Made by a program: the position numbers and the translations under genes
Source of the DNA: Gammaproteobacteria bacterium
Lineage (GTDB): Bacteria > Pseudomonadota > Gammaproteobacteria > JABXHR01
NCBI GenBank assembly: GCA_013373515.1
Contig: JABXHR010000006.1
Location: 1-51,829, forward strand
Length of the DNA stretch: 51,829 nucleotides
Reading direction: 5' to 3'
Shown here: one piece after another, positions 40,567-51,829 of the stretch
Layout of the letters: each line of letters opens with the position of its first letter
How positions within the stretch are numbered: the first letter of the stretch is position 1
The notes under the pieces: model-generated
Told to the model about the DNA's origin: nothing
What the model saw: the letters and a program-made list of their open reading frames with translations, nothing else
Databases searched by the model: none

Positions 40567-41103
40567 CTAATCGAACACCAAATTGCCGATGGACCGATTT
40601 GGCACTTGGATCGGTGAAACGTTGGAACGACGTCGACTGGCGGGACAATTGCCCGTTTCGATATAGGTTAATGCCGCCGCATAAAGTGTTTCATTTACAT
40701 CGCCAAATTCACCATCAATGGGGTCGACAATCTCGCAGGTTGGGGCAATCCCGGCGCTGTAACCGCCTTGGCCAAGTTTGGTGAGAGTCTCGAAGGTAAT
40801 TGCGGCAATGGAATGGCCACAGTAGTCCTCGACCTCCATCCCATAAGGCTTACCGCAGGTGGTTTCACCAATTGATACAACGGTTTGGATATAGGGTTTG
40901 AGTCCGTTAATAATCAGCTCACTGGCTGAGCAAGTTTTTGGCCCGGTCAGCACGATGACTTCGTTTAAATTCAGACCCGCGAAATCACCAACTTCAGAAT
41001 AGCTAGGCTGGCGGCTCGCGTTGTAACGATATTCAAGTAGGGTTTCCCCTGCACGACTAGCCTCTGCGTCTTGGATAATCTTCGACATGATATCCTCAGC
41101 CAA
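40567..41103 (-). pseudogene. S41 protease, C-terminal part (downstream of frameshift)
   Basis: A 178-codon frame encoding the catalytic half of an S41 (C-terminal-processing-type) peptidase. It has the serine in LTGPKTCSASELIINGL and the lysine in GETTCGKPYG, intact to the C-terminus. The conserved DLRDNGGGS motif lies just upstream in the same frame (about 41107-41136), where a TAA then blocks it. The N-terminal half lies in another frame at 41126-42685. One extra base within 41136-41143 (AATTTAAGATC on the minus strand) separates them. Alone, this part lacks a signal and PDZ domain. Confidence 0.75.
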
Positions 41104-41125
41104 TGCTGTACTGCCCCCGCCGTTA

Positions 41126-42685
41126 TCACGAAGATCTTAAATTAAGGCTATCGGGCGCACCATCAATCAGCGCTTGATAAACGCGATCAATTTGATAGTA
41201 GGCCGCCATATTGAATGCATACAAGTTCAGGTAGGCGACTGTCTGATTGGCGCGTTCGGTAAACAGCGGCCCGATAAACGCATCCTGAGCGTATTCAGAT
41301 TTGGGAATTGAAAAAGACCGGTTGTCGGATAGCCGCGTCAATTGAACAGGTTCAGCATCAATTTCACCGACAAACACGACCTCATCACCTCGACGCAGCC
41401 CATATCGATACCCGTTGCCATCCGCGTGTATTCTCGATGCAATCAAGGTGTTGTTTTGGGTTCGTACAAACGCCACACCGATACCGCTGTCCGAGCCTTG
41501 TAGGAAGTCATACCAAAATTCATTGCCAGCGATCCAACTGAATGTATGCCCCTCTTTATCCTGATCGCGTGCATCTAGATTGGCGTAAAAAATATCTCGC
41601 CAGCTTTCGCTAGCGTCGCTGGTGTCAATTTGCGCGGGAAGGTTGGTATTCCAATAATATTTTTCGTGCAGATGCTCGACAATCCAATCCTTTCGAGCCT
41701 CAGAGGAACACATTTCAAAGGTATTCGCCAAGTCGGAAAAGCCCTGAATCTCATTGTCGCTTTCATAAAGGGCCGAATAATTGAAACCCACCGCTTGCCG
41801 ATAAGCCTCAAGCGATTCTGTGTCCTCAATGTTCAAGTTGAAGGCTTGTAGATAAGGTAAGGTTTCGGCAAAAAATTCAGCTTGGGAAGTTTGCGCCGCA
41901 TCGACCAGCTTCGCCACCTGATCGACGGCCTCAAAATAATACCCCCAAAGATCGGTGATATCGCTCGCAGACAGTAAACCGTCATCGATCAAGTTATAGG
42001 CAATACCCAGACTATCCGCGTCGACAAAGCGATCCTCAGGCAGTGTTGCTCGGATGGCGTCTGCTAAATCGACAATGCTCACTTTCGAAGTGTGGGATGC
42101 AAGCTGGCGCAACAGGCGATCCCCAGCAATCTTTGTCGTTTCAGCCTCCCAAAGCTCAGCGGTGTCAACCCAAACACTCAGCTGATCGGCCAATATCGAA
42201 GCAATTTCATTGCCGTAGCGCTCTGCCACCAATAGCGCTTTGACGGTACTACTCTGCACCGGGTCTTCACGCCAGTCGTAGGCATTTGTAATGGTCACGG
42301 TATACGTCAGGGGGCTGTTCGACACTAAAGCGCCGCAAGTTGAATCCCTGCAAATATCCAACAACAGCGTTTCAGTGTGAGTGCCTACTGGTATCTGTGC
42401 AGGAGCGGAAATGTTTAAATGAACTTTTTTGCCAATCGCTCGACCATTTCTAAGACTGATGATATCGGCACTAGGCAGCGATTGCGGCCTGAGCCAATAG
42501 TCGCTGTCAGTTAGCGCAATCGATACTGGCTCAGGCCGCTCGCCATCGCTGATAAATAAGGTAGCCGAGTTGTTTTGCAGCTTTGCCGCACCCACCACAT
42601 CTCCCGTCGATTCCACGCAGCCGCTTACTAACGCCAAACTCACTAGCGCAATCGGAAGTCGCAACCCTAGACGCATTGATTTCAC
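41126..42685 (-). pseudogene. S41 protease, N-terminal part (lipoprotein with PDZ)
   Basis: A 519-codon frame beginning with a lipoprotein signal (lipobox LVSGC), followed by about 300 residues of unassigned sequence, a PDZ-like segment (SGIGVAFVRTQ; GYRYGLRRGDEVVFVG) and the start of the S41 core (VAYLNLYAF). It then breaks off as APDSLNLRSS where DLRDNGGGS is expected. It is expected to form one ~700-residue outer-membrane-anchored protease with the downstream frame. Conservation on both sides suggests a recent frameshift or a sequencing error. It lies 16 bases after the small secreted protein gene. Confidence 0.75.
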
Positions 42686-42701: not shown

Positions 42702-43112
42702 TTATGGTAATGCATTTGTTTCGGGTGCGCTCTCGACCTGTAAGATCGGCTGCTCATCTAATTGGGACGATTGCCAGCTCAGCACAAAACTTGAGTCAGG
42801 ATAGGCTTCAAGGACTGTTTTAGGCAGTCGCCAGTCGACATACTGCCAGTACTCACTGTCGGCGCCATAACTCGACAGCTGGCCGACATCGACGTAATAA
42901 ATGGTGTTTTCATCGAGCTGCCACTCAAGCTTAAGCGCTGTCAGCTCGGTGGGTTTGATAAAGAATTTCACCGAATCGGTCCAATCCCGCTCGGCATCTA
43001 ACGCCACTCGCCAACTGCCATCTTCATACTGTGAGGCGGTGCTGAGATCTGCCAGCGGCTCTGCCGCCGCTGGCCCCACAAGCGCAATCAAAAGTGTAAT
43101 GTGTTTGATCAT
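42702..43112 (-). CDS. Small secreted protein coupled to tyrosinase
   Basis: A 136-residue product with a clear signal peptide (MIKHITLLIALVGPAAA) and an acidic mature part with six tryptophans, no cysteine and no histidine. I recognise no family. The start overlaps the tyrosinase stop (ATGA), so it is translated with it. That recalls Streptomyces MelC1, a copper-loading partner, but the lack of His/Cys argues against a copper-binding role. The predicted fold is probably beta-rich. Confidence 0.65.
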   Translation of the reverse strand: MIKHITLLIALVGPAAAEPLADLSTASQYEDGSWRVALDAERDWTDSVKFFIKPTELTALKLEWQLDENTIYYVDVGQLSSYGADSEYWQYVDWRLPKTVLEAYPDSSFVLSWQSSQLDEQPILQVESAPETNALP

Positions 43113-44467
43113 TTCAATACTTCAAGCCTGAGCGCTCCAACGGTCATTGAAGCAGGCGTGTCTCCTACTAAGGGCTCTAACTGCAAGTCAAACGCAATAT
43201 CACCACTCGATGTGCCAATATTTGCAAATGTCAGCAAATGGCCTGATCGGTCGCCGCATTGCATTGCCATTTCCAGCATCCCGAAAAAGCAAATTTTCTG
43301 TGTCTCAAGGATTTGACCGGCTTGTTTTAAAGAAACGGCGATTTGATGGTCGGTGGTGGCTCGCCAGTCTGGACACTCGACCAAAATCCGTAAGCCCCCA
43401 TTGCGATCGATGGTTTCTTGCACGGGCACCGTGGTGGGGGCTTGAGTCGAAATCGCGATCTGAGTTTGCAGCACTTGCTCACTCAGGACTTCATCGATGG
43501 GGCTGATCATCATTCGTCTCGGGGCCGCAAATGCGCGGGCAAATACACTGCCAATCAGCGAATTGTAACGATAGCCTTGATTGAGCAATGCCATTGATTC
43601 TGCAACCGAAATCGAGAGTGCATCGCCATCGCGGTCGAAGAAATTGGCCTGAAATACACGGTTACTCAACTCTGGAAACTGATCCAGTGGCACGCGATTG
43701 CGCGACTCCCAGCTGGCAAACTGTCGATCGACCATGGCATGGTGCAACCAAAATATGGGATCCTCCGCCGCTGTTGGCGGGTTACGCATCTGCCCCCCAA
43801 CTTGGTTGTGAACGAAATTATGGGGGATGTTTTCAATTCCACCGCTCGCACCGGGCCGACCAAATGCGGTAATAAAGTCCACGTTGCTGTAATCAACCCG
43901 TCCGATGCTCAGGGTCGTACCAGGGAGCAATGTGCGACGTGTATCGAACACATCTTGATATAAATAAGCAGGTATTGAGGGCATGTTGTCCCAATCCCAA
44001 TACGGCAAGGCAAAACCCTCATCACCCGTCACTTCGCGGCAAATTTCCTCGAAAAAGTGCAAATAGGCACGATGCCAAGGGCCAAATGCCCAGTTGCCGT
44101 GTGGACAATGGTCATTGTGAATTTGCGCCTGTCGCGACCAGCTACGCGGATCACTGGGTGGCAGCGCTTTCATGCGTCTGACCGCTTCGCGATAGGTATT
44201 GATGATGGGGTGCGTGGCACTTAGACTGCTCAATGGTACCCGCACGCGGTTCGCACCGCTGCGAGGTACCGGATCCGGCGTCGGTGTAGGTGGCACAGGG
44301 GTCGTTGTGGACCCGTCCGGCACCGTTGGGTCAGGCGTTGTGGGCGGGGATGTCGGGGGCAAATCTGTCGCACAGCTGGCTAGCGCCGATGCGCTGACTG
44401 CCATCCCAATACCCGTTTTGATTGCTTTGCGTCGCTGTCGATCGACAGCTTCTTTTTTTCCGTCCAT
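43109..44467 (-). CDS. Tyrosinase-domain copper oxidase, Tat-exported lipoprotein
   Basis: A 452-residue type 3 copper protein. The N-terminus has a twin-arginine signal (RQRRKAIKTG) and a lipobox LASC (C32), then a Pro/Thr-rich linker (about 36-70). The CuA region has HNDHCPHG (117-124), WHRAYLHFFE (H132, H137) and PYWDWD; CuB has PHNFVH (H216, H220) and DPIFWLHHAMVDRQF (H242, H243). It should hydroxylate/oxidise phenols outside the cytoplasm, possibly for melanin-like polymers. The ATG at 44467 fits the Tat signal; upstream codons do not. Confidence 0.87.
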   Translation of the reverse strand: MDGKKEAVDRQRRKAIKTGIGMAVSASALASCATDLPPTSPPTTPDPTVPDGSTTTPVPPTPTPDPVPRSGANRVRVPLSSLSATHPIINTYREAVRRMKALPPSDPRSWSRQAQIHNDHCPHGNWAFGPWHRAYLHFFEEICREVTGDEGFALPYWDWDNMPSIPAYLYQDVFDTRRTLLPGTTLSIGRVDYSNVDFITAFGRPGASGGIENIPHNFVHNQVGGQMRNPPTAAEDPIFWLHHAMVDRQFASWESRNRVPLDQFPELSNRVFQANFFDRDGDALSISVAESMALLNQGYRYNSLIGSVFARAFAAPRRMMISPIDEVLSEQVLQTQIAISTQAPTTVPVQETIDRNGGLRILVECPDWRATTDHQIAVSLKQAGQILETQKICFFGMLEMAMQCGDRSGHLLTFANIGTSSGDIAFDLQLEPLVGDTPASMTVGALRLEVLK

Positions 44468-44597
44468 GGATTCTCTCTCGTTAAGTTTAGTTCTCTGCGC
44501 ATCAGCGCTTAGGCACAACCTTAACCCGAAAAACTGAACCAAATATGAGTGACCATACCGGCAAAAAATAACCGTGCAAAAAGTTACTTAGGGGCGA

Positions 44598-46313
44598 TTA
44601 ATCTGAATAGGCACGATAGAGAGAGAAACGCTGTTGAATGAGTTTGATATCCAACAAGGCTTGGATCATGTAAAACCAGCGATAGCGAACGCCGCGACGC
44701 CGCAAGAACTTGCGGCCTAAACTCAGCGGCAAAGCGAACAACGCCAGCAATTTACTCCGGGCATAGAAATCTTCCAAGCTCACCAGTCTTAGCCCCGATC
44801 CAGGCTCTCCTTGTCGCCCGCCACGGCCCATCAACTGAGTATCGCTTCGCACCGTAAAAATCGGGTCATAAATCAAAATCTGCAAGCCGCCAGCGGCCTC
44901 AACCCCCGCACCGAGCTTGATGTCGGTACCGCGTCCGCCAATATTGGTGGTCACCGTGACTTGGCCTGCCCGCCCAATCTCGTCAACCAATGCCTCTTCT
45001 TCGGCACTCTCGACAAAGGCATCGTAGACGCCACACGCCACACCGGCGCGCTGCAGCTGGCGCTCAATCGACCGTGCCGACTCAGGTGATTCGGCGCCGA
45101 CGAGCGTAGGCCGGCCCTGCGATTTTGCGGTCGCGATTTGGGACAAAAGAAAGTCAAATTTTTGATCCCGCGTGGAAAACAGTCGCAGCCCCGCGTCGCT
45201 AAAGACATGATTTTTAAGTTTTAAGCGATAGATGCCCGCCCCATACAGACGCAAAAGATCCACATCACAAAAATTGAGTGATCCGCTGCACCCCCCGACC
45301 CAGCTGTAGCGCTGAAAAAGATTGAAAAACCAAATCTTTTGCGCATTTCGCGAGAATGGCGTTAGCGGCACGGCTTCGATTAGTTCGACAATGCTGTGAT
45401 ACACCCCACCGAGCTTACGATCCGGTTCACGGCGCCCACTAAACTGGTCGAGCAACTCGATCTTTTCCTCGCGCACCACATAATGTCGATCGCGTTTGTA
45501 GTTCATGGCGACGTAAATCACTTGATCGACCAAATAACTAACAGCCAAGTAATCAAGTGGCTCATCGGCAAACTGTCGCTCAAGCCACTGCAGAAATTTG
45601 ATTTTTTCCGAGGCATTGAGCGCCTCACCACGTGTGCCGAGCCAGTTCATTTGGTCGACATAGCGATAGGCAATTTGCAGTTGCTGCTGCAGTGGGCCGT
45701 CCTGGTATTGCTCGGACATCACAAACGGAATACGCGTCTCGTCCAGCAGTAAACTGTCCGCTTCATCTATTAACACCACCGCATTGCTAAATTCGGTTTT
45801 TGCGCCCGAAAACAACGCAGAGGCCAAGGATTTGGCCGAGGTGTAAATTACCGTGTGTTTCTGCGCAATCCCATCCGTGCCGCTGACCACGCCCAAATCC
45901 GCGAACAAGGGCCGAGATTTACCGTAATCTCGATGAGCAAGGTATTCATTAGAGGTCAGGATAGTGGCCGCCTTACCAGCGCGTGCAATCAATGCTGCAG
46001 CCATCAACAAACACACAGACTTGCCCGAGCCAGTCTCCAACTCGACAAAGTTGCCGCGCGACATGAGCAGCGCCGTATGTACCTGTCGCGGCGTTGGCAA
46101 AAAGCCATAATGCCGCTGGATGACTCGGCCAATTTCACTGAGCATGGCGATCAACTCGGGCGCATCGAACGCACACCCCAGATAGTCATACACGCCATCC
46201 GGCGGTGGATCGGTAGACTGCAAATAAGCAATGGACTGCAACTGACGCACCAGCTTAGAAGCGCGCTGGCGGTGGCGCAGAAGATCCGTCAGTGAGTGCA
46301 GCTGGCCATACAC
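44598..46313 (-). CDS. Short SecA-like ATPase
   Basis: A 571-residue SecA paralogue (E. coli SecA 901). NBD1 has Walker A ETGSGKS (93-99), SNEYLAHRDYGKSRPLF and DEAD box DEADSLLLDETRIP (183-196). A preprotein-crosslinking-like region (about 200-340) is followed by the WVGGCSG pivot, and NBD2 has TNIGGRGTDIKLG (456-468) and GRGGRQGEPGSG. After ~520 the protein stops in a short basic tail, so nearly all of the helical scaffold/wing and the zinc-binding tail are missing. GTG at 46313 overlaps the M50 gene stop by one base. It is probably the motor of the adjacent export operon. Confidence 0.85.
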   Translation of the reverse strand: MYGQLHSLTDLLRHRQRASKLVRQLQSIAYLQSTDPPPDGVYDYLGCAFDAPELIAMLSEIGRVIQRHYGFLPTPRQVHTALLMSRGNFVELETGSGKSVCLLMAAALIARAGKAATILTSNEYLAHRDYGKSRPLFADLGVVSGTDGIAQKHTVIYTSAKSLASALFSGAKTEFSNAVVLIDEADSLLLDETRIPFVMSEQYQDGPLQQQLQIAYRYVDQMNWLGTRGEALNASEKIKFLQWLERQFADEPLDYLAVSYLVDQVIYVAMNYKRDRHYVVREEKIELLDQFSGRREPDRKLGGVYHSIVELIEAVPLTPFSRNAQKIWFFNLFQRYSWVGGCSGSLNFCDVDLLRLYGAGIYRLKLKNHVFSDAGLRLFSTRDQKFDFLLSQIATAKSQGRPTLVGAESPESARSIERQLQRAGVACGVYDAFVESAEEEALVDEIGRAGQVTVTTNIGGRGTDIKLGAGVEAAGGLQILIYDPIFTVRSDTQLMGRGGRQGEPGSGLRLVSLEDFYARSKLLALFALPLSLGRKFLRRRGVRYRWFYMIQALLDIKLIQQRFSLYRAYSD

Positions 46314-48442
46314 TAGCGGTTACTCGCCGTCAGCCAGTTCCAGAAACGGACATACAATGGCTGGTCACGAGACCACCAAGTCAGCCTAAGCGGCATTTGT
46401 TCACGCAGGACTTTCTCGCAGTTAAGCTGCAAGCGAAATACCGTTACCGGCTCCCGTGTGACCAGCTGACTGTTTTGTAATTCGTGTGCCAGCCCCGAGG
46501 CCAACATCGCATTTTGATAACGCACATCCACGGCTGTGCGCAGCCCACCAATCTCACCGATCTGTTCAACCACGCAGCCGAGGTTCTGCAACCCAGCGTC
46601 AATACTTGCCGGTTCACCGGCCTTAATCGCCGCGATGGCATCTAACTTTGCCCGCGGGATCAGCATTCGGACCGTGCCCGTGGACTGTTCGCTTTGGTTG
46701 ATGATGCCAATGCGCTGCCCGGCACTGAGCCATTGCCCCTCATTGACCGGGGTCTGAAAGAAAAACAAACCATCCATCGGCGCCGTGATGACGTAGTCGG
46801 TCATTTTCTCGTTTAAGACAGACAGGGTTTCCTCTAACTGAGCGCGCTTTAAATCCACCATCTGCCGATCTGCGGCTTCAGACAAATACAGGGCTTGGGT
46901 GTTTAACGCCGTGAGTGTGGCATTTTGCTCCTCGACCAAATTGTTGAGCTGATAAGGATCGAGCCTCACCAGCACATCGCCTGCGCGAACAAAATCGCCG
47001 TCCTGCACCTCAAGCGACACCACTTCCGCCAGCGTTTGCGAGCTGACCAATCGCTCGGAGCGAATGTCGACAAGCCCGTGAACTTCACTGCGCCAGGGCA
47101 AAGGCACCACCGCCAGCGCCACCAGCAAGCCTGCCAGCGCCAACAACATGATTCCGCGCATGATTCGAGTCTCCTCCTTGTAAGGGGACATCACCAAATG
47201 AACCACCGCCTTTTTAAGCGGCATCAGAAAGATCAATAAAAAGGCGAGTAACAGGTAGAAATACCCCACCAATTCATTAAGCGAAAAGACATATTTCGCG
47301 ATGATCAACGTCACCGCAAAGGCGTAGATGCTACTGGCCACGCCATACACCCCCAGCAACGCGGGTCGACCGGAGAAATAGGTTTTGTCGAGCGCCTGCG
47401 CCGCGCCCACCCAACGCGCCATGGTCGAGGTTAAAAACTTTCGGCTGCGTTGATATAAATCTGGATAGTCGACTACCTCAGATAACGCATAGTAGGCATC
47501 GAATTTCAAAAGCGGATTGCCGTTAAAGAACAAGCTCGAGACCACCACAATGTACACCGCGTTGGCAAACACCGTCTGGTAGAAGCTATCTTCCACCCAC
47601 AAGAAACCCAAAATACACAAAAATCCCAGCAAGATATCAGACATCATCCCGGCCAGAATAATCATCAACCGAGAACCTTTTGAGGGATTCATTACCGCTT
47701 CTGAAGCGTCTACAAATGGAATGGGGGCAAGGATTAGAATCATGACCCCGATCTTTTTGACATGCACGCCGACATAACGCGCCGCCAACGCATGTGCGCT
47801 CTCATGCAGCAACTTACTCATCAGATAGGTCAAAAACAACAATCCGATCTGGGTGTAGCTGCTCAAATTAGGGAGATAGGGCCGCAGCGCAGCAAAATTC
47901 AAATAAAACGCCACTCCAAACGCACCACCGAGCAGCACAAACACGGCCCACACCGAGGTCGTCGATAGATATTTTGCAGATGGCCTGACCTTGTTAAACC
48001 AATTGGCGAGCGCCACCGAACCCAGCCTAAAGAAAAACAAAGACCACAGTTTTTGCGACAGTGGTTTGCGCTCGGATTCAAGCTGAATCCGCTGCTCAAT
48101 CGGCGATGCGGTGGTATCCGCGCGGCGAGACTGCAAATAGCCCCCGTCAAACAAACTGACAATGGCTTGATAAAACTCGATCTCAGTCGGCAGGCCATCA
48201 TCCAGAAAATCGACACGCCGATTCCAAATATCAATCGCCGCCTCACCCGAGAACAGCGAGCGCAACATGGGAATCAGTCCGCCGGTGACTTCCAGCCCCT
48301 TACAACACTCGGTGTTGTAAATCATCATCACTCGACGGCCTTCCCCGTCGAGACGATAATTAAACGTCACCCAAGGCGAAGGCCGAAACGCACCGCGACC
48401 GAAGCGGTGAATGTCGTTGGAGAAGTAGTTCTCAACCGCCAT
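46313..48442 (-). CDS. PqqD-like / M50 metallopeptidase / HlyD fusion protein
   Basis: A 709-residue inner-membrane protein in three parts. Residues 1-110 are a PqqD-like peptide-binding type domain. Residues 135-445 have many membrane segments with the M50 zinc site HESAH (213-217) and NPLLKFDAYY (309-318). Residues 450-700 are a periplasmic HlyD-type adaptor with lipoyl-like segments (VVSLEVQDGDFVRAGDVLVRL and VITAPMDGLFFF) and a short coiled coil. The gene ends overlapping the SecA-like start. Related fusions accompany peptide export loci; whether it cleaves a substrate or acts as the membrane channel base is unknown. Confidence 0.85.
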   Translation of the reverse strand: MAVENYFSNDIHRFGRGAFRPSPWVTFNYRLDGEGRRVMMIYNTECCKGLEVTGGLIPMLRSLFSGEAAIDIWNRRVDFLDDGLPTEIEFYQAIVSLFDGGYLQSRRADTTASPIEQRIQLESERKPLSQKLWSLFFFRLGSVALANWFNKVRPSAKYLSTTSVWAVFVLLGGAFGVAFYLNFAALRPYLPNLSSYTQIGLLFLTYLMSKLLHESAHALAARYVGVHVKKIGVMILILAPIPFVDASEAVMNPSKGSRLMIILAGMMSDILLGFLCILGFLWVEDSFYQTVFANAVYIVVVSSLFFNGNPLLKFDAYYALSEVVDYPDLYQRSRKFLTSTMARWVGAAQALDKTYFSGRPALLGVYGVASSIYAFAVTLIIAKYVFSLNELVGYFYLLLAFLLIFLMPLKKAVVHLVMSPYKEETRIMRGIMLLALAGLLVALAVVPLPWRSEVHGLVDIRSERLVSSQTLAEVVSLEVQDGDFVRAGDVLVRLDPYQLNNLVEEQNATLTALNTQALYLSEAADRQMVDLKRAQLEETLSVLNEKMTDYVITAPMDGLFFFQTPVNEGQWLSAGQRIGIINQSEQSTGTVRMLIPRAKLDAIAAIKAGEPASIDAGLQNLGCVVEQIGEIGGLRTAVDVRYQNAMLASGLAHELQNSQLVTREPVTVFRLQLNCEKVLREQMPLRLTWWSRDQPLYVRFWNWLTASNR

Positions 48443-48445
48443 GGT

Positions 48446-50134
48446 TTATTCGTAGCGCTTGGTCAGCTTGAGCCAAATCCGCCAGGCATGACGCTGAATC
48501 CATCGCCACGCCTCAACCTTGCCGGTTTGAAGATAACCATCCAAGTCCGTGCCGGGCACCAAAGCCAAGGCATCGCCATGATCCAACTTAATCGGAATCG
48601 AATGCGGGCGCTCATTGGCATCAACCACCACGGAGGCAATCGCAGAAACGCGAGCATCGAAATAGGCTTGATCTAGCCCCTTGCGGCGCAGTTTAACCGG
48701 CATGTCAACCGCCGCAAAATCCACCTCACGCTCTGGCACAAAGCCCAAAATATCGCCGCTGACACCCGGAGATACCACATAGAATCGTTCGCCAACATTG
48801 ACCGAATTGCCCAAGAAATTTTGCCGCTCCCCCGATACCACATAGCCTGTGAGCGTGGAGCGAATGGTAGAGCGCTCGATTTGCGATTGGATTTGGGCAA
48901 TTTTGGTTTCGATGACGCCAATATCTGCGCGCGCCAACTCGGCTTGTGCAAGATCGCCCGCCGCGACAGAGAAGTTCACCGTCGATTCCTTTGAGGCGCG
49001 TTCACCCTCCAGCTCAAGCAAACGCAGCTGCAAATCCACCGTATCGAGCTGGATCAAAATATCGCCCTTATTCACGGCATCGCCAAGATTCTTGGTGGCC
49101 TCGACCACCAATCCCGGCACAGAGCTAGAGACCACTTGATCTTCAGTGGCTTGCACAATCGCATCGACCGGCACCCGATACTGCAATTGATACAGCACCA
49201 ACCACGCCACCAAAGCGGCTATCAGTGATATGTTCAGCAGCCAGCCCAGCCGCAATTTTCGCCCGCCGGTACCCACCAAACGCATGCCGATGCGCCGCCA
49301 GAATGAAGACAAATCGTACCCAAGCTGTGCGAAAGGCCAAGACAACGCAACATTGGTGCGCAGACCAGCAGCCACAGGGGGATCATTGGATTGATGACGA
49401 ATCAGTAACAGCACCAAGCGTTTGCGCTCACTGCGCACTCGGCTGCCAAAAAACACCACGTCCACTTGATGCTCCACTGCAAATTCACGCACACTCCTAG
49501 GCGCCAACTGCAGGCTTTGCACATCGTGAAAACTATTCCATCCTTCAAAAGTCGATAGCTCGCTGAGCATTAAATTAAGCCGGCCACGAAAGCGCCCACT
49601 CAATTCATCAGCGTCTTTGGTGGCGCCCGATAACTTGAAATGTCGAACCGACTGCGCTTTGACTTCCGCCGCCGCAGCATTACTGTAGCCGAAGGTTTTG
49701 CAGAGTTTGTTGAGCCACTCTTTGATCAGATCATTGCGTTCGTCGCGAGCGGAAAGGTAATTGATGCTGTCATCATCGAGCTCTGTCAGTGGCAAACTCG
49801 GGGCGGCCGAAAGTGGCTGCGCCGCCACCGCACGCGCGACGGATTTTAACCAGCGCAACTTGGTGGGATGCTTACGCACTTGCCCCAGCACAACCACCAG
49901 TTCCCCAACCAAAAAGGCAGACACATAAGCGCTTTGGTCGGCCAATGTTAAATCTTGCTCGGGTTCGCGTGCAGGGTCGACCGTGGCTCGCCACTGAGAG
50001 ATTCCCGCTTGTAAACCCGGGCTCCCGGAGCAGTGCGTCAGCGGCTGATCTAAGGTGTTGGCATACCCCACATAGCAAAATTCACGATCTGTCGTGGCAA
50101 TCGCCCCTAATAAAGCAACAACGGACTGACTCAT
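48446..50134 (-). CDS. HlyD-family adaptor with a large N-terminal cytoplasmic domain
   Basis: A 562-residue membrane-fusion protein. Residues 1-290 are soluble, without a recognised domain (a GAF-like fold is possible in 120-270). A single membrane helix lies near 300-318 (LNISLIAALVAWLVLYQL). The rest is a HlyD adaptor with lipoyl halves (VPGLVVEATKNLGDAVNKGDILIQL; STLTGYVVSG) around a coiled coil. The ATG overlaps the preceding hlyD stop (ATGA) and three bases separate it from the M50 gene. The cytoplasmic domain could engage the SecA-like ATPase or a substrate. Confidence 0.83.
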   Translation of the reverse strand: MSQSVVALLGAIATTDREFCYVGYANTLDQPLTHCSGSPGLQAGISQWRATVDPAREPEQDLTLADQSAYVSAFLVGELVVVLGQVRKHPTKLRWLKSVARAVAAQPLSAAPSLPLTELDDDSINYLSARDERNDLIKEWLNKLCKTFGYSNAAAAEVKAQSVRHFKLSGATKDADELSGRFRGRLNLMLSELSTFEGWNSFHDVQSLQLAPRSVREFAVEHQVDVVFFGSRVRSERKRLVLLLIRHQSNDPPVAAGLRTNVALSWPFAQLGYDLSSFWRRIGMRLVGTGGRKLRLGWLLNISLIAALVAWLVLYQLQYRVPVDAIVQATEDQVVSSSVPGLVVEATKNLGDAVNKGDILIQLDTVDLQLRLLELEGERASKESTVNFSVAAGDLAQAELARADIGVIETKIAQIQSQIERSTIRSTLTGYVVSGERQNFLGNSVNVGERFYVVSPGVSGDILGFVPEREVDFAAVDMPVKLRRKGLDQAYFDARVSAIASVVVDANERPHSIPIKLDHGDALALVPGTDLDGYLQTGKVEAWRWIQRHAWRIWLKLTKRYE

Positions 50135-50934
50135 GAATTAAAAACGATATAACCGTTAATGCCGAGCAATGACATATCTACCGAATCAGGAATACTGAAA
50201 TAGAAGGTTCGCTGTTGGTTTTGCTTATCAGGCACTGCCGAGGCATGTGAAAAGGTGACCGGAATTTTCTGACCGCCTAACAACACCTCAAAGGTCCGAT
50301 CGCTGCTGGCCATGGCCCATTGGTTTTGTGGAACACCCACCTCAAAAAAGCGTGCCTTGTGGTCGATAATGCGTGCCAAAACTTCACCCGGCTTCACCCA
50401 CTGCCCTTTTTCGACCATCACCTCGGCCACAAAGCCTTCAATGGGAGATTTCACAGTCAGATCGTCTAGCCGCTGCTGCCACTGCGTCATCTCTAGTTTG
50501 GCTTTTTCGCGCTCTCGCACAGCACTAGCCATCTCTGTCTTCAGCTGCTGGGAGCGCATCAGCGCATTTTCGACATCAGACGCGGTGATTGATCCCATAC
50601 CGCCAGCGGCCTTGCGGTAGCGCTGGTATTGCTTGTCGGCAGAGCGCAATTGCGCGCCGAGCGCATCAATCACGGATGAATCATTCGCGTACAGCGCAGC
50701 ACTCTCCAATGCGGTTTGCGCAAGGCGCGGATCAAACTGCACCATCGGCTGGCCCACCGATACCAAGTCGCCCTCTTCGACCACCACATCAACCACTTGC
50801 CCGCCTTCGCGATGAATCAATTCAACGTCATATTGGCTTTCAATCGAGCCAATCAAGCGCACCTCAGCCGCAGACAATGGCAATGCCATCGCCAGAATTA
50901 AACCTCCACATAACGCCTTAAGCACGGCTGACAT
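50131..50934 (-). CDS. Periplasmic adaptor (HlyD/RND membrane-fusion type)
   Basis: A 267-residue secreted adaptor with an N-terminal signal peptide (LCGGLILAMALPLSAAE), lipoyl halves GGQVVDVVVEEGDLVSVGQPMVQF and SPIEGFVAEVMVEKGQWVKPG, a helical hairpin between them (about 75-165) and a beta-barrel end. It is shorter than typical RND adaptors. It overlaps the tolC-type gene by 17 bases and the next adaptor by four, so the operon makes three adaptors to bridge to the outer-membrane channel. Confidence 0.85.
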   Translation of the reverse strand: MSAVLKALCGGLILAMALPLSAAEVRLIGSIESQYDVELIHREGGQVVDVVVEEGDLVSVGQPMVQFDPRLAQTALESAALYANDSSVIDALGAQLRSADKQYQRYRKAAGGMGSITASDVENALMRSQQLKTEMASAVREREKAKLEMTQWQQRLDDLTVKSPIEGFVAEVMVEKGQWVKPGEVLARIIDHKARFFEVGVPQNQWAMASSDRTFEVLLGGQKIPVTFSHASAVPDKQNQQRTFYFSIPDSVDMSLLGINGYIVFNS

Positions 50935-51829
50935 ACCCCCTATAGATTGAAATTAAATCCGCCGAATCACGGTAGATCTCGATTAAGCGCTTTTCGATTT
51001 CAATGGCGTCGAGCTGGAACTGCAAAAGCTGCGACATACTGACATTGCCCAACCGTTGTGCCTGCTCAAGTTGCGCCAACAGCGTCTGGTTTTCGCCACG
51101 AATGGTCATTGCCAAATCAATGCGCTCGATCAATGACGCCGCCAATGATTGAAATGATTCGATGTTTTTATGGAATATCGTCTCAGTGCGCTCGAGATTC
51201 TGCGTTTCGGTCAAGAGCTGGTTGCTAAGTGACGCCAACTTCTGCCGACGCTGACGATCGAAACCAATCGTCGACTCAAACTCCAGCCCCACATACCAAT
51301 CGGCATAGGTTTTATCCTCTGCGGCTTTTTGGATATCTTCGCGACGATAGGCAATGGAGCCCTGACTAATCGTGCCCACCAGATCCAAGCGAGGGCCCGT
51401 GGATTTGCGGTAACTTTCAAGCTTTGAAGCCGCCGAACGATAGCGAGCCAAGCCTTCCACGTACATGGCCCAATCTTGCAAATCTCGTCCATTGAGCTCA
51501 GTCGACAAGACTTGCAAAGCGGCCTTAGGCGATTGGAACACCAAATCTTGGCTATTGACGTCCAGCTGCAGCTCGCGATTGATATCTAACACCGCGGTTT
51601 GCAATAAATGATTGAGTTCCAATAGATCCGACTGATTGCTCATCCGGCGTAACTGGAGCAACTTGAGTTGCATCGGGTTGACCAACCCCGCATCCAAGTT
51701 CTGCTCCATGCCCACAACCAATTGCGAAATGATCGATTGCTCGCGCTGCAGTATTTGCGACTCTTGCTCACCGATCACAATGCGCCAATACAAATCACTG
51801 GCAAAAGACGCCGCCTCAGCGCGCCGCGA
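50918..51829 (-). CDS. TolC-family outer-membrane protein (partial, 5' end outside window)
   Basis: The frame stays open to the right edge, giving at least 303 residues of the C-terminal part of a TolC-type protein. Long amphipathic helices are interrupted by beta-like segments (STGPRLDLVGTISQGSI and WYVGLEFESTIGF), ending in helices with LLQFQLDAIEIEKRLIEIYRDSADL. An apparent TTG start at 51793 is internal: codons upstream continue the frame. It is presumably the outer-membrane exit duct of the export system and the most upstream gene visible. Confidence 0.8.
   Translation of the reverse strand, partial: SRRAEAASFASDLYWRIVIGEQESQILQREQSIISQLVVGMEQNLDAGLVNPMQLKLLQLRRMSNQSDLLELNHLLQTAVLDINRELQLDVNSQDLVFQSPKAALQVLSTELNGRDLQDWAMYVEGLARYRSAASKLESYRKSTGPRLDLVGTISQGSIAYRREDIQKAAEDKTYADWYVGLEFESTIGFDRQRRQKLASLSNQLLTETQNLERTETIFHKNIESFQSLAASLIERIDLAMTIRGENQTLLAQLEQAQRLGNVSMSQLLQFQLDAIEIEKRLIEIYRDSADLISIYRGYVSRA

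Follow-up and report, generated by a model that had tools for sequence, protein, structure and literature searches.

The five-gene operon reported here is a real, divergent member of a published yet uncharacterised SecA/HlyD/M50 module, and the evidence across its relatives supports well that operons of this type are tied to giant surface proteins with a LEPR-XLL leader as their cargo. It was found in a window of 51,829 bp, the whole stretch of DNA analysed, which is the entire contig C215 of a 3.65-Mb assembly in 287 contigs. The link between the module and the LEPR-XLL giants is new here, as far as the literature could be searched. We regard it as probable that the operon serves to export, without an ABC transporter, giant repetitive surface proteins with a LEPR-XLL-type leader, and is dedicated to them.

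The LEPR-XLL/DUF4347 giants, with frames of 4,600-18,000 residues, rank among the largest bacterial proteins, and no paper on their export route was found in a literature search. Joining them to the locus described in 2015 merges two questions, that of cargo export and that of locus function, into one, and could define an exporter with a SecA motor in place of an ABC transporter.

The five-gene operon

The genes of the operon and the adjacent tyrosinase-domain gene are listed below with their best Pfam matches.

50918..51829, minus strand: TolC/OEP-family outer-membrane duct gene (OEP, 8e-6), truncated at its 5′ end by the contig boundary
50131..50934, minus strand: HlyD2, small periplasmic adaptor (HlyD_3, 2.7e-15), one N-terminal hydrophobic segment (1-23)
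48446..50134, minus strand: HlyD1 (HlyD_D23, 2.2e-8), N-terminal domain of ~290 aa, membrane segment 294-318, HlyD adaptor
46313..48442, minus strand: M50-HlyD (Peptidase_M50, 7.9e-7; HlyD_3, 1.8e-6), polytopic M50 with C-terminal HlyD
44598..46313, minus strand: SecA-like ATPase, 571 aa (SecA_DEAD, 3.9e-28; P-loop_SecA, 9.6e-26; SecA_PP_bind, 6.7e-7)
43109..44542, minus strand: tyrosinase-domain gene, outside the system (Tyrosinase, 2.8e-34)

A previous sequence-only reading of this DNA had described five genes on one strand with these families and overlaps; its coordinates were exact and the Pfam families agree. By the coordinates, neighbouring genes overlap by 17, 4 and 1 bases, the 1-base overlap lying between M50-HlyD and the SecA-like gene, and one pair is separated by 3 bases. 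The ORF list and Pfam likewise bore out the claimed absence of an ABC transporter, an RND pump and SecY, none of which was found among the five genes. The tolC gene is cut because the window is a whole contig, and about 130-250 N-terminal residues are absent relative to full-length relatives. With the TolC of a locus of the same gene order (L180) as query, the window tolC was the single match in its own genome (E 2e-4).

The SecA-like protein consists of the motor domains and a short, partial PP_bind region, with intact motifs (Walker A GSGKS at 95, DEAD at 183, TNIGGRGTDI at 456 and QLMGRGGRQG at 493). The housekeeping SecA of the same genome is encoded elsewhere, by a 924-aa ORF on contig C80. 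By Pfam, the wing/scaffold domain SecA_SW was found neither in the window protein nor in any of the 19 family members scored. The M50-HlyD protein has HESAH at 213 and NGNPLLKFDAY at 307, and 22 homologues all share the HExxH and NP/D residues; the protein thus carries the motifs of an active-type zinc protease (HExxH and a distal NP...D), whose activity is predicted. Pfam detects PqqD at the N-terminus of 12 of these 22 homologues, and the N-terminal region of the window protein is assigned to the PqqD type by homology. A GAF domain precedes the membrane segment in 15 of 20 HlyD1 homologues; none was detected in the window HlyD1, which is homologous and in place.

Conservation of the operon as a unit

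The M50-HlyD protein of the window, used as query, detected homologues in at least 52 of 369 genomes drawn evenly across its class, a lower bound since three candidates were scored per genome, in a survey whose counts otherwise ignore kinship. Neighbourhoods of up to 20 kb were viewed at 40 places, together with the best 80 loci of the named genomes; the ORF caller was simple, and some false long frames were chosen in GC-rich loci. Across the homologous loci HlyD1, M50-HlyD, the SecA-like gene and HlyD2 form a compact block. HlyD1 abuts M50-HlyD in 91 of 102 loci, and in 80 of 87 the SecA-like gene follows M50-HlyD at no more than 300 bp (median spacing −8 bp). With a SecA-like profile, members of the family scored 774-973 bits and housekeeping SecA no more than 644, which leaves a clear gap, and the SecA-like sequences form one group against housekeeping SecA with a branch support of 100. 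Had the five genes not belonged together, SecA-like genes should mostly occur without the adaptor genes; the M50-HlyD gene was instead present in all 22 other genomes of the class above the score gap, directly adjacent in about 19. The five genes belong to a single module, conserved and free of ABC genes, that contains a SecA-type ATPase and whose distribution includes Pseudomonadota, Desulfobacterota, Nitrospirota, Fibrobacterota, Omnitrophota and Planctomycetota.

The window member sits on a very long branch, yet groups with L180, L199, L207, L053 and L043 (98% support), and in the M50 tree its operon occupies the longest branch of all. Its gene order TolC-HlyD2-HlyD1-M50-SecA recurs in L180 and L207. 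In the two genomes of the window's taxonomic order, a search found no relative outside the window's own genome.

No SecA-like gene lies nearby in 34 of 121 M50 loci, about a quarter, so the SecA-like protein is either not universally required or replaced there by another ATPase. The E. coli and Citrobacter plasmids carry such a version in the order giant-TolC-HlyD2-HlyD1-M50, for Citrobacter by similarity. On the E. coli plasmid (NZ_CP104683.1 96967-116712; L285, L289) a 4,457-aa Ig-like giant with the N-terminus FALESRQLFDGAA is followed by TolC, two HlyDs and M50-HlyD. No ABC transporter was found among the ten neighbours of SecA-less loci that were scanned, the large ones being OEP, Ig/cadherin and unrelated genes. 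The SecA-less loci are the chief difficulty for the export model set out below, and another ATPase may serve there.

A small DUF3467 protein was observed at L282:15863-16144, L283:15744-16064, L287:12681-12977 and 24 further loci, and is absent from the window. Where the locus is annotated, its gene sits between those of the giant and HlyD1, and it may act as a chaperone or in coupling. The SecA-like gene is labelled 'prepilin peptidase' or 'DEAD/DEAH box helicase' by NCBI (e.g. L284:20260-23098), names under which the family has been hidden.

LEPR-XLL giants as probable cargo

Giant ORFs flank the operon in its relatives, and most of those with a visible N-terminus bear the LEPR-XLL leader (NCBIfam NF012209). 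They often contain DUF4347 (PF14252), cadherin/Ig or RTX repeats, and in some the RTX repeats are C-terminal. The Ig/FG-GAP giant of L053 departs from this, with a start that resembles a Sec signal. In the survey of 369 genomes, where LEPR genomes were defined by LEPR-8K matches at E <= 1e-3, M50-HlyD was present in 26 of 28 LEPR genomes (3.9 expected; Fisher, 3e-23) and the SecA-like protein in 16 of the 28 (1.7 expected; p 1e-15). DUF4347 and M50 occurred together in 34 genomes of the same survey (6.6 expected; p 2e-24).

Among 27 named genomes picked for a giant ORF beside the operon, and not for LEPR, 26 contained a LEPR protein (E <= 0.1), as did 23 of a second set of 27 named genomes with M50 (E <= 0.01). 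In 22 of the first 27 the leader starts the operon-adjacent giant ORF itself, in frames of 4,610-14,390 codons that end just before the operon. Four extended loci from other genomes yielded complete operon-linked giants of 10,321, 3,177, 14,059 and 8,630 aa, all four with the leader. The same arrangement is visible in NCBI annotation: plasmids of Pontibrevibacter, Pseudosulfitobacter and Thalassospira read LEPR-XLL protein, adaptor, M50-HlyD, SecA-like, adaptor, with the SecA-like gene in Pontibrevibacter and Pseudosulfitobacter only and not in Thalassospira; M50-HlyD is there named PqqD family, site-2 protease or biotin/lipoyl-binding protein.

A set of 65 leaders gave the consensus [F/Y]x[F/L]ExLEPR[L/I]LLSAD[P/L], located 3-120 codons past the start of the frame and preceded by a basic stretch. 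None of the 65 has a long hydrophobic core, so the leader is not an ordinary Sec signal. A SapC gene was found in about 20 homologous loci, in the gap between the giant and TolC/HlyD1, in that between M50 and the SecA-like gene, or just after the operon; it adjoins the giant and TolC in L180, L207 and G054. The sequence-only reading had supposed that a substrate gene may lie upstream of tolC, outside the window, and this fits: in L180 and L207, with the order of the window, a giant ORF and SapC occupy that place. Two further occurrences of the leader were observed, one being the eleven LEPR-8K matches in a single genome of Phycisphaerae (G421, L145), the other an 18,012-codon open frame with the leader in Thiomicrospira microaerophila (G372:C10:53906).

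The same reading had also named the adjacent tyrosinase group as possible substrate. This was rejected, as no tyrosinase homologue was present in any of about 120 homologous loci. The tyrosinase-domain protein (43109-44542) begins RQRRKAIKTGIGMAVSASALASC, which looks like a Tat and lipoprotein-type signal, or one of these. At 40567-42685 of the window a frameshift or stop seems to have divided one gene into two neighbouring ORFs, of which the upstream one has a Peptidase S41 N-terminal domain.

Candidate cargo in the genome of the window

In the genome of the window itself LEPR-8K gave no match at E <= 10 (criterion, above 17 bits), and no DUF4347 was found. A family-wide leader model built from 21 leaders had its best match in this genome at the N-terminus of an ORF on contig C140 (15.4 bits, E 0.076; MAMRKFVKKNWFQSLCKPTEQRTLFSADPIVV). 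The locus is:

G000:C140:14430-23254 (L294, L296): giant of at least 4,806 aa, then SapC (PF07277, 8e-71), then giant of 2,669 aa

Complete, repeat-like and nearly cysteine-free, the 2,669-aa giant begins MAMRKFVKKNWFQSLCKPTEQRTLFSADP and has a homologue (2e-20) in the LEPR giant of the G054 operon. Its leader, TEQRTLFSADP, is divergent and falls below detection by the LEPR-XLL model. The two giant ORFs around SapC are likely the cargoes in this genome, judging from leader, homology and partner gene, on a contig separate from that of the operon. Joining C140 to the end of the window was considered and rejected, as the two do not overlap and the 3′ side of C140 seems to close with a gene in the opposite orientation.

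A model for export and its alternatives

TolC and the HlyD adaptors are known to build ducts that span the periplasm and the outer membrane, PqqD-type domains bind leader peptides, the motor domains of SecA push unfolded chains, and M50 proteins are polytopic and cut within the membrane. Placing these family functions on operon and cargo gives the following model. Recognition of the LEPR leader would take place in the cytoplasm, where the PqqD-type N-terminus of M50-HlyD is a plausible receptor, and the truncated SecA-like ATPase would feed the unfolded giant chain. The polytopic M50-HlyD would form or guard the inner-membrane passage, as receptor or channel, with possible cleavage of the leader, and the duct to the cell surface would consist of TolC and the three HlyD modules. 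We infer in this way that the SecA-like protein drives translocation, that M50 is the channel or cuts the leader, that the PqqD-type region recognises the leader and that all parts form a single machine. The stronger version, a distinct trans-envelope system in which a LEPR leader, a PqqD-type receptor, a SecA-derived motor and an M50-HlyD-TolC conduit handle proteins as long as some 18,000 residues without SecYEG or ABC transporter, is put forward tentatively, at somewhat less than an even prospect.

Modelled by AlphaFold (pLDDT 74), the SecA-like protein has its best TM-score matches in SecY-engaged SecA (6itc, 0.74; 3dl8, 0.73), which leaves room for a version coupled to SecYEG. The giants would then cross by SecYEG with the SecA-like ATPase, and M50-HlyD, the HlyDs and TolC would act on periplasmic and outer-membrane steps only, in processing, retention or exit. 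The retained PP_bind domain agrees with such a route, and the housekeeping SecA could serve the SecA-less versions. SecA engages SecY, however, through wing/scaffold parts, and SecA_SW is missing in 19 of 19 SecA-like proteins; in addition the LEPR leaders are without a signal-peptide core and secY does not recur in the annotated operons. We consider passage by SecYEG rather unlikely. A structure search with the M50-HlyD model matched the HlyD part alone (MexA/AcrA), with no site-2 protease among the top 50 matches, and the M50 fold thus rests on sequence.

The operon might otherwise be a device for maturation or anchoring, in which M50 cuts the leader or regulates release and the SecA-like protein is an unfoldase or acts in quality control, the giants leaving elsewhere, e.g. 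by a type I system. The invariant catalytic HExxH and D of M50-HlyD, the GAF-type sensory domains of HlyD1 homologues and the occasional absence of the SecA-like gene would suit this, as would the RTX repeats of some cargo, since C-terminal RTX repeats are typical of ABC-driven type I secretion. But TolC and three adaptor modules are parts of a duct, not of a protease, and SecA-less loci such as that of the E. coli plasmid are also without a nearby ABC gene, so that we hold this explanation to be improbable. Equally slim is the chance that in its own genome divergence has given the window's operon a cargo unlike the LEPR giants; its place as the longest branch in the M50 tree, the shortened SecA-like protein and the negative LEPR-8K and DUF4347 searches point that way, against which stands the 2,669-aa giant beside SapC on C140, with its LEPR-like leader and its homology to the operon-encoded cargo of G054. 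The preferred reading remains export of LEPR-type giants by the operon. Counting against it are the SecA-less loci, the loss from the SecA-like protein of the wing/scaffold that SecA employs at SecY, the C-terminal RTX repeats of some cargoes, and the divergent leader of the window's genome on a contig with no physical link to the operon.

Comparison with known systems

The sequence-only reading took the operon for an undescribed system and knew of no characterised one with this set. Its conserved ABC-free module with a SecA-type ATPase stands, but 'undescribed' does not: Kamneva, Poudel & Ward 2015 (PMC4452313), in the portion of the paper available, describe 'secondary SecA_DEAD' genes in a conserved locus with M50/HlyD, GAF/HlyD, HlyD and sometimes OEP, and no ABC transporter. 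As they propose the same machine, with SecA as ATPase and M50 as pore, it was already known as a prediction. The biological role is there called 'completely unknown', and that portion names no cargo. No later study of a locus of this type was found in a search of the open-access literature, preprints lying outside it; a paper on polymorphic toxins was considered as prior art and rejected, as it yielded no relevant passage.

The window resembles the 2015 locus, as far as the available portion describes it, in a second SecA_DEAD protein without SecA_SW beside a separate housekeeping SecA, in the adjoining protein with M50 and HlyD, and in the further HlyD and OEP; the GAF-HlyD protein may correspond to HlyD1, in place and homologous, with GAF detected only in its homologues (15 of 20). 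Added here to that portion are the LEPR/DUF4347 giants, the SapC and DUF3467 partners, the PqqD region, the SecA-less forms and a divergent tolC-containing member, that of the window. The families LEPR-XLL (NF012209) and DUF4347 (PF14252) describe the cargo and not the machine, and NCBI names some operon-adjacent giants LEPR-XLL.

Type I secretion (HlyBD-TolC, with giant adhesins such as SiiE and LapA) shares HlyD adaptors, TolC and giant repetitive cargo in one operon. It differs in that the window operon has M50-HlyD and a SecA-like ATPase instead of the ABC transporter ATPase/permease, and in that the LEPR signature is N-terminal, whereas that of type I substrates is C-terminal. The models of M50 maturation proteases of daptides and epipeptides were not reached, with 96.5 bits against a cut-off of 300 (NF041824) and 28.9 against 225 (NF058609). 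The accessory Sec systems of Gram-positives (SecA2, SecA2-SecY2) likewise devote a second SecA-family ATPase to special exported proteins. The SecA-like protein scored far below the cut-off of the SecA2 models (217 against 930 bits), and in contrast to accessory Sec it is without the wing/scaffold, has no SecY2 or SecY gene in its operon and is built into a Gram-negative adaptor-TolC operon.
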